DNA of 40,622 bases from positions 1-40,622 of the forward strand of contig JADFHF010000004.1 of NCBI GenBank assembly GCA_022567305.1. The letters run 5' to 3'. The notes below the pieces were generated by a model. It did not search any database and was not told the origin of the DNA. It worked only from the letters and a program-made list of their open reading frames with translations. This stretch comes from Bacteroidota bacterium. Its GTDB lineage: Bacteria > Bacteroidota > Rhodothermia > Rhodothermales > UBA10348. The translations under genes were made by a program, and so were the position numbers. Of this stretch, positions 16,003-32,107 are shown piece after piece (within the stretch, counting starts at the first letter, position 1; the number at the start of each line of letters is the position of its first letter).

Positions 16003-18477
16003 TTATTGCCGAAGTTTGGCACCATGATTTTTTTCAAGCGAAGAAATGATTTGAGTCACTTCCTCATCCACTTCTTCATCGCGGAGCGTTCGATCTGCTG
16101 CAAACGTCATCGCAAATGCGACGCTCTTTAGGCTGGCATCAATCTGATCTCCCGCATACAGGTCGAACACACTTACGTTAACCAAAAGCTCACCGCCTGC
16201 ATCCCGGATCGATTTGACCATCGGACCTACGGCTTCGGACCTGGATACGGTAACCGCAATATCTCTGTCGACAACGGGATGACGGCTAAATGCGTCGTAG
16301 TGTTTTTTTAGAAAAGGCGCAGAAAACTCCGATATAGAGCTCCAATCCACCTCGAGAAAGAAAATATCGCCACGCAGGTCGAAAGCTGAAGTCACGCTGT
16401 CCGTCAACTGTCCAAGCACCCCGAGTCTTTCATGACCCGAATATATATCAATATGGTGGGTCGATACTTTCGACGCTTCGTATATCGGGACGAAGCGAAC
16501 GTCCGGTAGATGAACGGAATCCAGCACGACTTCAGCAATTCCCTTCAAGTCAAAAATGTCTTCCACGCGGGCGCTGGTGTCCCATCCGGGTAAATCATGC
16601 TGGCCGGAGGACAGAATGAGCAAACACTCTCGCTCGGTGTAGTTCTCGAGGATAGAGTGTTCGGTATGGACGCGCATTTGTGAGTTTCCGAACTCGAAAT
16701 ATTTGAGCGACAATCGGCCCCGGTTTAAGTTGTGCGCAGCTACACGAATAACTCCCGGAAGAACGCTAGGCCTGAGCGTAGCCATCTCCCTGGATACCGG
16801 ATTTAACGTGTCCACTACTTCTCCACCAAATCGAGCCCCCGGCAAGATCGGGTCGCAAAATGACTCCGCCACTTCTCGGCTGAGCATGCTGTTCGTCACC
16901 ACTTCCTTGAAACCTAAGGAGCTGAGAAGATTGCTCACCTGCTCTCGTAGTTGTCTCTGCGGCGAGATAGAGACGGGGTGGTTGGGGATAGCGGAACGAG
17001 AAGGTTCCGGAATAGCGTCGTATCCAACGAGCCGTGCGACTTCTTCGATCATATCGATCTCGCGCTCTACATCAGGGCGGAAGGAGGGAATCTCACATTT
17101 CAGGGCACCATTTTCGCTCGAGATATTGAATCCGATGCTCGTGAGAAGACTCTGAATTCGATCTTCCGGCACCACCAAGCCCAAAACATGACTAACACGC
17201 TCGGGGCGGAGAGTTGCAAAGCGGGGCTCATACGGGGCTGGATTCGCGTTGACACAGCCGTCGATTTCACCGCCAGCGAACTTTGCCATCAACTCGGCAG
17301 CTCGTGCAGCCGCTCGAAGCTGAGCGGTTGGGTCGATTCCGCGTTCGAATCGATACGAAGCCTCGGTCTGCAGCTGCAGGGCCTTGGCCGTGCGCCGAAT
17401 CTGGGCCGGATTAAAATAGGCGCTCTCGATGAGAACATTTTTCGTGTCCGCCGTGACCTCTGAATTCTGCCCTCCCATGACGCCGGCAATCGCTACATCG
17501 CGATCTCTGTCGGCAATCATTAGCGTTCCGATCGGTAGCTCCCGCTCGACGTCATCCAATGTCGTGAATTTGGTTTCGGTACTCGTTTCACGGACGATAA
17601 TCTTTGCTCCGGCCAGCAGTTCGAAGTCGAATGCATGAAGCGGCTGCCCCACCTCGTACATGACGTAATTGGTAATATCAACCACGTTATTGCGGGGACG
17701 CAGTCCGATCGCCGAAAGTCGCTGCTGCATCCAGACGGGGGATTCCTTGATTTCGACGCCTTTCACCAGAATAGCCGCATAGGTCGGGCACCCCGCAGGG
17801 GCGTCGATCTGAACGGAGAAGTCGGCTGTTGATTCCTTGCAGTCAAGGGAAATCGAAATGGATGGCGACTTAAGTTCTTTACCCGTGATTGCTGCGACAT
17901 CGCGGGCCACTCCGATGTGAGAGATGGCGTCCGGCCGGTTCGGTGTGATGGCGATATCGATTACTGTGTCCGCCAGTGGTACATTCTTATCACTGACGTA
18001 GTCTTCCAAGGACGTCCCTGCGATCGCACCTTCGTCAAGGACCATGATTCCCGTATGATCCTCTGAGAGTCCGAGCTCGTTTTCGGCGCAGATCATCCCG
18101 TGTGACACTTCCCCACGGATCTTGGACTTCTTGATCTCGATCCTTTCAAGGGCGTCGTCGTCGGTTCGGCTGGGCAGGTGTAGAATCGTTCCGATGGTCG
18201 CTACGGGGACCTTCTGTCCGGCGGCGACATTCGACGCTCCACATACAATCGAAAGGGGCTCTCCGTCACCCACGTTGACCGAGCAGAGTGTGAGTCGGTC
18301 GGCATTTGGATGAGGATTGACTTCAAGTACCTCGCCCACGATGATGCCGTCGAGCCTGGGCCCGATCTGTTCAACGTCTTCAACCTCGAGTCCGGCCATG
18401 GTCAGTCGATCGGACAGTTCCTCGATGGACAGTCCGTGATCAACGTAATCTCTGAGCCAGTTGGCGCTGATTTTCAT
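16003..18477 (-). CDS. pheT: Phenylalanyl-tRNA synthetase beta subunit
   Basis: An 824-residue protein, the standard length for the long bacterial beta chain. The N-terminus MKISANWLRDYVD is diagnostic, followed by the tRNA-binding EMAP-like domain (about 38-150, VGEVLEVNPHPNADRLTLCSVNVG), the B3/B4 editing domain (with VDITNYVMYEVGQPLHAFD), the B5 domain, the catalytic-like core and the C-terminal anticodon-binding fold ending near FDLYAGDQI. With PheS it forms the alpha2-beta2 enzyme that charges tRNA-Phe and hydrolyses Tyr-tRNA-Phe. It starts about 56 bases after the pheS stop and shares its transcript. Confidence 0.97.
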   Translation of the reverse strand: MKISANWLRDYVDHGLSIEELSDRLTMAGLEVEDVEQIGPRLDGIIVGEVLEVNPHPNADRLTLCSVNVGDGEPLSIVCGASNVAAGQKVPVATIGTILHLPSRTDDDALERIEIKKSKIRGEVSHGMICAENELGLSEDHTGIMVLDEGAIAGTSLEDYVSDKNVPLADTVIDIAITPNRPDAISHIGVARDVAAITGKELKSPSISISLDCKESTADFSVQIDAPAGCPTYAAILVKGVEIKESPVWMQQRLSAIGLRPRNNVVDITNYVMYEVGQPLHAFDFELLAGAKIIVRETSTETKFTTLDDVERELPIGTLMIADRDRDVAIAGVMGGQNSEVTADTKNVLIESAYFNPAQIRRTAKALQLQTEASYRFERGIDPTAQLRAAARAAELMAKFAGGEIDGCVNANPAPYEPRFATLRPERVSHVLGLVVPEDRIQSLLTSIGFNISSENGALKCEIPSFRPDVEREIDMIEEVARLVGYDAIPEPSRSAIPNHPVSISPQRQLREQVSNLLSSLGFKEVVTNSMLSREVAESFCDPILPGARFGGEVVDTLNPVSREMATLRPSVLPGVIRVAAHNLNRGRLSLKYFEFGNSQMRVHTEHSILENYTERECLLILSSGQHDLPGWDTSARVEDIFDLKGIAEVVLDSVHLPDVRFVPIYEASKVSTHHIDIYSGHERLGVLGQLTDSVTSAFDLRGDIFFLEVDWSSISEFSAPFLKKHYDAFSRHPVVDRDIAVTVSRSEAVGPMVKSIRDAGGELLVNVSVFDLYAGDQIDASLKSVAFAMTFAADRTLRDEEVDEEVTQIISSLEKNHGAKLRQ

Positions 18478-18533: not shown

Positions 18534-19544
18534 TCAGGCAAATTGGTCTAGAAAACGCTCGTCGTTCTCGAATAAAATCCGGATGTCGTCGATGCCGTAG
18601 CGGAGCATGGCGATCCGATCGATCCCCATTCCGAACGCATACCCGGTGTATTTCTCAGAGTCGATGTCGACGGCCTCAAGCACGTTGGGATGCACCATTC
18701 CGCACCCCAGAATCTCTAGCCATCTGCCCCCACCGGGAAGAGATTCATCGTTCCACCAGATATCGACCTCGGCACTGGGCTCGGTAAAAGGAAAGAAGCT
18801 GGGTCTGAAGCGCATTTGAACATCGTCTCCAAAGATGGTTTGAGCAAAGGCATGTAGAATTTGCTTTAAGTCAGCCATTGTAACCCCTTCATCTACAAAG
18901 AGTCCTTCGACCTGATGGAAGAGGCAGTAAGATTTGTATGAAATGGATTCGTTCCGATATACACGTCCCGGTGCGATAATCCGAAATGGGGGTTCACCGT
19001 CCTTCATAGTTCGGATTTGAACGGGAGATGTGTGGGTTCGGAGCATGATTCCACCGTGTTCAAGGTCCGTCGGCTCGATGAAGAACGTGTCTTGCATGTC
19101 GCGCGCCGGATGGTCGGCGGGAAAATTCAACGCAGAGAAATTGTGCCAGTCGTCCTCGATCTCCGGGCCTTCTTCAACGGTGAATCCGTAAGACTCAAAT
19201 ACACGATTGATCAGATGGCGCGTCTGTGTGATAGGGTGGAGGGAACCCATTTTCGGAGCGCGGCCCGGCAGCGAGAGATCGATGTCTCGCTGATCCGACG
19301 CGGACGAACCCAGTTTAGTTTTTGCATCTTTGATCTTTGCATTGGCCAGCGTCTTCAACTCGTTCACTCCCTGACCGTACGTACCACGCTCCCCGGGGGA
19401 GACGTCCTTGATCCCCTTCATCAAGTCGGTGATCTTTCCCTGCTTCTTGCTCAGGTAGCGAATCCGGAATGAATCGACGGCGTCGGCCGAGTCCAGCGAC
19501 TCGGCTTCAATCTCTTTTCGAAGCGAATCAAAAACTTCCGTCAT
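18534..19544 (-). CDS. pheS: Phenylalanyl-tRNA synthetase alpha subunit
   Basis: The 336-residue catalytic subunit, normal length. An N-terminal coiled coil (about 1-85) is followed by the class II core: motif 1 region with [19 protein letters not shown], motif 2 with [12 protein letters not shown] and [13 protein letters not shown], and motif 3 with [22 protein letters not shown] at the end. I choose ATG at 19544 ([11 protein letters not shown]); the frame opens further upstream to 19622, but that stretch overlaps the attenuator hairpin and cannot be coding in practice. The upstream leader carries a Phe-rich peptide and an intrinsic terminator, so its expression probably responds to charged tRNA-Phe. 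Confidence 0.97.
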
Positions 19545-19566
19545 CGTCGGTCGATCGGTTGCACTC

Positions 19567-19607
19567 AAAATAAAAAGTCCCGCCGACCTGTCTGGCAGGG
19601 GCGGGAC
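19567..19607 (-). terminator. Attenuator terminator in the pheS leader
   Basis: On the minus strand GTCCCGCC (19600-19607) pairs with GGCGGGAC (19577-19584), with an inner CCTG/CAGG stem, followed by TTTTTATTTT (19567-19576), 22 bases before the pheS start. The segment GCCGACC (19638-19644 on the minus strand) is fully complementary to GGTCGGC in the 3' half of the terminator (19582-19588), which offers a competing antiterminator. Confidence 0.85.
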
Positions 19608-19654
19608 TCTAAGCTGTCTCAAGCAGTTCTTCTAGTCGGTCGGCACCACCTACG

Positions 19655-19705
19655 TTACAGGACGGTCGCGTCGCCGCTAAAAAATCGTAATAGAAGAAAT
19701 TTCAT
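19655..19705 (-). CDS. Phe-rich leader peptide of pheST (PheM-like)
   Basis: A 16-codon ORF (ATG 19705, TAA 19655) reads MKFLLLRFFSGDATVL. Three of 16 residues are phenylalanine, two in tandem after a Leu/Arg run, similar in idea to E. coli PheM with its FRFFF stretch. It sits between rplT and pheS, exactly where pheM lies in the E. coli thrS-infC-rpmI-rplT-pheM-pheST operon, and about 50 bases before an intrinsic terminator. The known mechanism in E. coli is that ribosome stalling on Phe codons when charged tRNA-Phe is scarce favours an antiterminator and raises pheST transcription. That this works here is inference from arrangement. The peptide itself has no expected function beyond translation. 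Confidence 0.65.
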   Translation of the reverse strand: MKFLLLRFFSGDATVL

Positions 19706-19767: not shown

Positions 19768-20115
19768 TTATGATTGCGCTGCAGCAACCACTTTCGTGAA
19801 TGCATCAGGATCGTGCATCGCCAGGTCGGCAAGTACTTTTCTGTTCAGCTGAATGTCTGATTTTCGGAGCGACCCGATGAGCTGAGAGTACGTCGTGTCG
19901 TTCTGTCTTGCAGCTGCGTTAATTCGAGCGATCCAAAGGCGGCGGAATTGACGCTTGCGTTGACGGCGATCCCGGTACGAGTACTGGAGGGCTTTGTCGA
20001 CAGCGTGTTTCGCAACCGTGTAAATACTTCCCCGACGGCCCCAGTAGCCTTTGGCCATTTGGAGGACGCGCTTACGGCGACGTCGGGAAGCTACTCTATT
20101 TCTTGAGCGTGGCAT
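19768..20115 (-). CDS. rplT: 50S ribosomal protein L20
   Basis: A 115-residue ribosomal protein with the highly basic, extended L20 N-terminus ([28 protein letters not shown]) and the globular C-terminal domain with [17 protein letters not shown]. It binds 23S rRNA early in large-subunit assembly, and in other bacteria represses its own operon by binding the messenger. It lies 26 bases after rpmI; the pheS leader follows. Confidence 0.98.
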
Positions 20116-32033: not shown

Positions 32034-32107
32034 TGGGTCATAGTGGATTCGAACCGCTGACCTCTACGATGTCACCGTAGCGCTCTAGCCAACTGAGCTA
32101 ATGACCC
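32034..32107 (-). tRNA. tRNA-Val (anticodon GAC)
   Basis: A complete 74-base cloverleaf on the minus strand: acceptor GGGTCAT/ATGACCC (7 bp), D arm GCTC/GAGC with AGTTGGCTA loop, anticodon stem CTACG/CGTAG with loop GTGACAT, variable AGGTC, T loop TTCGAAT, discriminator A; CCA is not encoded. Anticodon GAC reads valine codons GUC and GUU. Two oddities: loop position 32 is G, and the T stem has a C-A mismatch (AGCGG opposite CCACT). Nothing recognisable lies in the 228 bases downstream of it (31806-32033). Confidence 0.93.

Follow-up and report, generated by a model that had tools for sequence, protein, structure and literature searches.

A candidate phenylalanine-codon attenuator between rplT and pheST in the Rhodothermales

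Among the gamma-proteobacteria, the pheST operon of E. coli is named as a classical attenuator, and for tRNA synthetase genes outside the Proteobacteria classical attenuation is known from trpS and leuS of Streptomyces (PMC1262725). The classical ribosome-mediated attenuators of trp, his and phe share one logic, in which control codons act together with four RNA segments (1-4), and the element described here follows the same logic and adjoins a tRNA synthetase operon. It differs from the Streptomyces attenuators in amino acid, phylum and gene context. For Rhodothermota and Salinibacter, a literature search returned no account of a Phe leader or of attenuation by a leader peptide; such a mechanism may have been mentioned before for Bacteroidetes. 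A study by Vitreschak et al. from 2004 reportedly dealt with attenuators. We analyzed a stretch of 40,622 nucleotides of Rhodothermales DNA (the window) together with the rplT neighbourhoods of 60 relatives, then 114 genomes of the order, and named contigs. The spacer between rplT and pheS very probably encodes a ribosome-mediated transcription attenuator of pheST.

The genes of interest lie on the minus strand of the window in the order thrS-infC-rpmI-rplT-pheS-pheT. The gene for ribosomal protein L20, rplT, occupies 19768..20115 (an ORF for which 58 of 60 relatives gave an L20 match and whose stop codon ends at 19768), and pheS, encoding the alpha subunit of phenylalanyl-tRNA synthetase and putatively the controlled gene, occupies 18534..19544 (Pfam PF01409, 335.8 bits; ATG at 19544). 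Directly downstream of pheS follows an 824-aa ORF (16003..18477, minus strand), the second gene of the operon, which from its position and general knowledge we take to be pheT, the gene for the beta subunit. The rplT-pheS spacer is 220-odd bases long and holds a leader ORF and an intrinsic terminator. The likeness to the E. coli rplT-pheM-pheST order that had been pointed out from the sequence alone was borne out: the gene order (thrS-infC-rpmI-rplT-leader-pheS-pheT), the Phe-codon leader between rplT and pheS and the terminator before pheS are the same. When E. coli pheM was read as a control, it showed the same plan, with CCAGGAGGCU after the leader stop pairing with AGCCUCC of the terminator 5′ arm. 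The leaders have no sequence kinship beyond Arg-Phe-Phe, the number of Phe codons is five in E. coli pheM versus one to four in the Rhodothermales, and the terminator lies 22 bases from pheS in the window versus about 200 bases in E. coli.

The leader ORF of the window is located at 19655..19705 (minus strand) and encodes MKFLLLRFFSGDATVL in 16 codons, three of which specify Phe (ATG AAA TTT CTT CTA TTA CGA TTT TTT AGC GGC GAC GCG ACC GTC CTG TAA). It is the 16-residue Phe-containing ORF that the sequence-only reading had placed between rplT and pheS. A lone ORF of 16 codons is weak evidence, but by sequence comparison across genera it is lifted far above chance. A Phe-containing mini-ORF before the terminator was found at the same site in 57 of the 96 Rhodothermales genomes having rplT followed by pheS, covering 24 genera and 9 families. 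Two further genomes on broken contigs also had a Phe leader, including the nearest relative (G006, MNIRRTRFFVSSASRL). Examples are MKPLRAIRFFRVRAAGL in Rhodothermus sp., MTQYLPNAFFFFGTLPG in f15, MPLIRAPFRFAFAFRVSPNPQGH in f13 and MSNPIQYRFFTITPIAC in f8. Measured against dinucleotide shuffles of the spacer, Phe was the most over-represented residue in the leader ORFs (z 15.4; the runner-up, Thr, reached 8.2), and 15 of 29 genera had Phe-Phe in an ORF that starts with ATG and precedes the terminator, versus 0.26 expected, with a maximum of 3 in any of 300 shuffles. When the order was searched with a covariance model of the element (R1), all matches with E below 1e-9 fell within the spacer between rplT and pheS, with a single one per genome; matches elsewhere in the genomes and across the remainder of the phylum were weak and terminator-like only. 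The switch is dispensable, since 39 of the 96 genomes lack the leader. Genus g6 holds one species with the leader (L005) and one with the terminator only (L004), apparently a recent loss by deletion. In family f4 (L203 and L204, corresponding to G053 and G029) and in two f13 genomes (L171 and L176, corresponding to G106 and G105) pheS no longer adjoins rplT, and in the two f4 pheS upstream regions that were read there was no terminator and no clear Phe leader.

The control codons CGA TTT TTT (Arg-Phe-Phe) are found at 19679..19687 (minus strand). Across genomes the leader peptides had little in common except (Arg-)Phe, as expected if function depends on the codons rather than on the peptide, and the leader stop codon was mostly located 5-9 codons past the last Phe and 19-53 nt ahead of the terminator. 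The Arg codon directly before the Phe codons of the window is CGA (19685-19687), and the same position in relatives is nearly always CGA, a Rhodothermales feature that E. coli pheM lacks. The bias was strong: CGA was used in 34 of 38 Arg-Phe cases, whereas in the pheS genes of these genomes it accounted for 164 of 1384 Arg codons (12%). Together with the 18 of 56 leaders that have a single Phe codon, which is few for a classical attenuator, this speaks for a pause with a cause other than, or besides, uncharged tRNA-Phe, be it slow decoding of CGA, peptide-dependent arrest or a need to synchronize ribosome and polymerase, with Arg(CGA)-Phe as the conserved element. We regard such a pause as improbable, since lineages without the Arg retain two to four Phe codons (SFFF, AFFFF in family f15), which makes Phe the common denominator, and since no other peptide conservation was seen. 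It is conceivable, if rather unlikely, that a minimal attenuator evolved in the Rhodothermales, in which the dicodon CGA-UUU would be the whole sensor and a slowly read Arg codon plus one Phe codon would suffice. The sufficiency might possibly be due to re-initiation at the rplT stop setting ribosome and polymerase in step. The leader start was within -20..+8 bases of the rplT stop in 33 of 57 genomes, with an ATGA overlap in 13 of the 57 (e.g., L020, L010 and L012), an arrangement that differs from E. coli pheM and suggests translational coupling, with re-initiation by ribosomes finishing rplT. Among tRNA-Arg genes of the draft genome, which is probably incomplete, only the anticodons CCG and CCT were found and none reading CGA. 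Whether CGATTT might pair, as RNA, with the base of the terminator was judged by eye; such pairing was conceivable in f1 (GAUUU with AAAGUC) and impossible in f3 and f11, and was discarded.

The intrinsic terminator (3:4) with its U-tract occupies 19567..19610 (minus strand). Its stem, 19610-19574, had a folding energy of -24.4 kcal/mol, and folding of 19560-19625 gave a z of -4.4, with none of 200 shuffles as good, which confirmed the strong terminator that had been proposed 22 bases ahead of pheS. The hairpin was missed by a simple terminator scan of the window, probably because its stem is bulged, and is clearly shown by folding. Among relatives the stem CCCGCC/GGCGGG is conserved. Around the leader stop codon there is complementarity to the terminator 5′ arm and loop that recurs genus by genus, as CUGUAGCAGGCGG with CCGCCUCCUUCUACAG, GUUGAAGGUGG with CCGCCUCCUUCAAC and CUGUAACCGGGGCG with CGCCCCUGUUACAG. 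In the window, segment 2 (19644..19663, minus strand), the 5′ side of the putative antiterminator, includes the leader stop TAA (19657-19655) and forms 14 bp with segment 3 (19590..19603, minus strand), the 3′ side, which consists of the terminator 5′ arm and loop. Helix 2:3 and the terminator are mutually exclusive. Segment 2 also takes part in hairpin 1:2 (19628..19684, minus strand; 19684-19664 with 19650-19628, -21.5 kcal/mol). The stretch 19637-19650, GGTGGTGCCGACCG, is identical letter for letter in three genera (the window, L003 and L021), perhaps beyond what the helices need.

Helix 2:3 of the window alone was only moderately better than shuffles (16/200). Across genomes, each leader found a better partner in its own terminator arm than in arms swapped in from other genomes, and none of 20,000 permutations was as good, both for the whole leader and for the region from stop-9 to stop+26. 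The same test on nine genera without a leader gave no signal (7821/20,000), and with one genome per family the signal was weak (831/20,000, 9 families), as it was in the corresponding test of hairpin 1:2 (861/20,000). At the contact between segment 2 and the terminator loop there were compensatory changes, with U-A in 6 and A-U in 5 cases at one pair and G-C in 11 and A-U in 1 at another. As the loop is unpaired in the terminator, which itself imposes no constraint there, this covariation tells for 2:3. Consensus folding of a cross-family alignment returned the terminator only, because the other helices shift in register, and ungapped and permutation tests were used for this reason. The sequence-only reading had proposed another antiterminator, the 7-mer GCCGACC (19644-19638) paired with the terminator 3′ half. 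As stated there, the 7-mer is perfectly complementary to GGTCGGC (19588-19582), but this pairing was not supported: a local hairpin of 15 bp would have to yield to 7 bp, the competing hairpin 1:2 (19684-19628) has the 7-mer in its 3′ arm, and the partner GGTCGGC is absent from the closest relative, G006, where the 3′ arm reads CCAGGCGGGACT. The spacer comparison in relatives that the reading had called for thus showed a recurring Phe ORF and a conserved terminator and did not show the 7-mer's complement kept in G006. Conservation and RNA-structure tests in the Rhodothermales support a Phe-codon leader and attenuator before pheS as claimed, and the true antiterminator, as judged from co-varying sequences, is 19663-19644 with 19603-19590.

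A constitutive terminator ending the rplT operon, with a Phe ORF that is chance or decayed sequence and a pheS with its own promoter, would fit the bare terminators that most of the 39 leaderless Rhodothermales genomes, as well as Balneolales and other Bacteroidota, have at this site. We consider it very improbable in view of the Phe specificity of the leader ORFs, the confinement of 2:3 complementarity to genomes with a leader, and the regular distances that separate control codons, stop codon and terminator. L20, the product of rplT, autoregulates in other bacteria, and the spacer follows its gene; still, a translation-independent sensor (T-box, riboswitch or L20 binding) acting on the same terminator is the least probable reading and hardly credible, as the Rfam search of the window matched nothing in the rplT-pheS spacer and no T-box model upstream of pheS (its sole match being a tRNA gene at 32034-32107, minus strand), and as the Phe reading frame is the only conserved feature besides the terminator and partner segments.

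Three of the features by which a ribosome-mediated attenuator is recognized are found at this locus: a short leader ORF with control codons cognate to the controlled gene, an intrinsic terminator between leader and first gene, and a predicted antiterminator, begun at or near the leader stop codon and completed by the terminator 5′ arm. In the proposed mechanism, RNA polymerase, arriving from rplT or starting at a promoter closer by, would transcribe the Phe leader with a ribosome translating the transcript behind it. With ample charged tRNA-Phe, the ribosome would get to the stop codon and, because this codon lies inside segment 2, leave segment 3 free to pair with segment 4, so that transcription would end 22 bases short of pheS. 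If charged tRNA-Phe were scarce, the ribosome would wait at the Phe codons and cover segment 1, upon which 2:3 would pair, the terminator would be blocked and pheST would be transcribed. If the leader were not translated, hairpin 1:2 would occupy segment 2 and the terminator would stay on. These states were modelled by folding only the RNA left free by the ribosome. A ribosome placed on the stop codon let the terminator form in 21 of 21 genomes, and one placed on the Phe codons before segment 4 had been made gave helix 2:3 in most of the 21; no clear 2:3 helix was folded for G012 and G030.

The gene order is shared by Balneolales and several other Bacteroidota, in which the terminator stands bare and the leader is absent. 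With regard to common descent with enterobacterial pheM, the same chromosomal position was found, and presence in the intermediate lineages sampled (Balneolales and other Bacteroidota) was not. The absence from Balneolales points to an origin independent of E. coli pheM, and from the lineages compared within Bacteroidota the switch probably arose within the Rhodothermales, at the same locus. The tree of L20 and PheS required the leader to be gained or lost at least 14 times, a count that alone does not tell gain from loss. Our reading is that one gain near the base of the Rhodothermales may have been followed by repeated losses that left the terminator (e.g., G005 versus G012 in one genus).

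These results extend ribosome-mediated attenuation, with comparative support, to the Rhodothermales (Rhodothermota/Bacteroidota). The conservation across the order indicates that in these cells the ribosome itself would serve to sense phenylalanine, as in E. coli at the same place. The same switch is suggested to have arisen twice at one intergenic site, in E. coli and in the Rhodothermales, and a suggested route is the addition of a Phe reading frame to a pre-existing terminator. To our knowledge, transcription-translation coupling has been little studied in the Rhodothermales. As the switch would work only if the ribosome follows the polymerase closely, it offers a natural probe of this coupling in the order, and since Rhodothermus carries the element, it is testable in culture.
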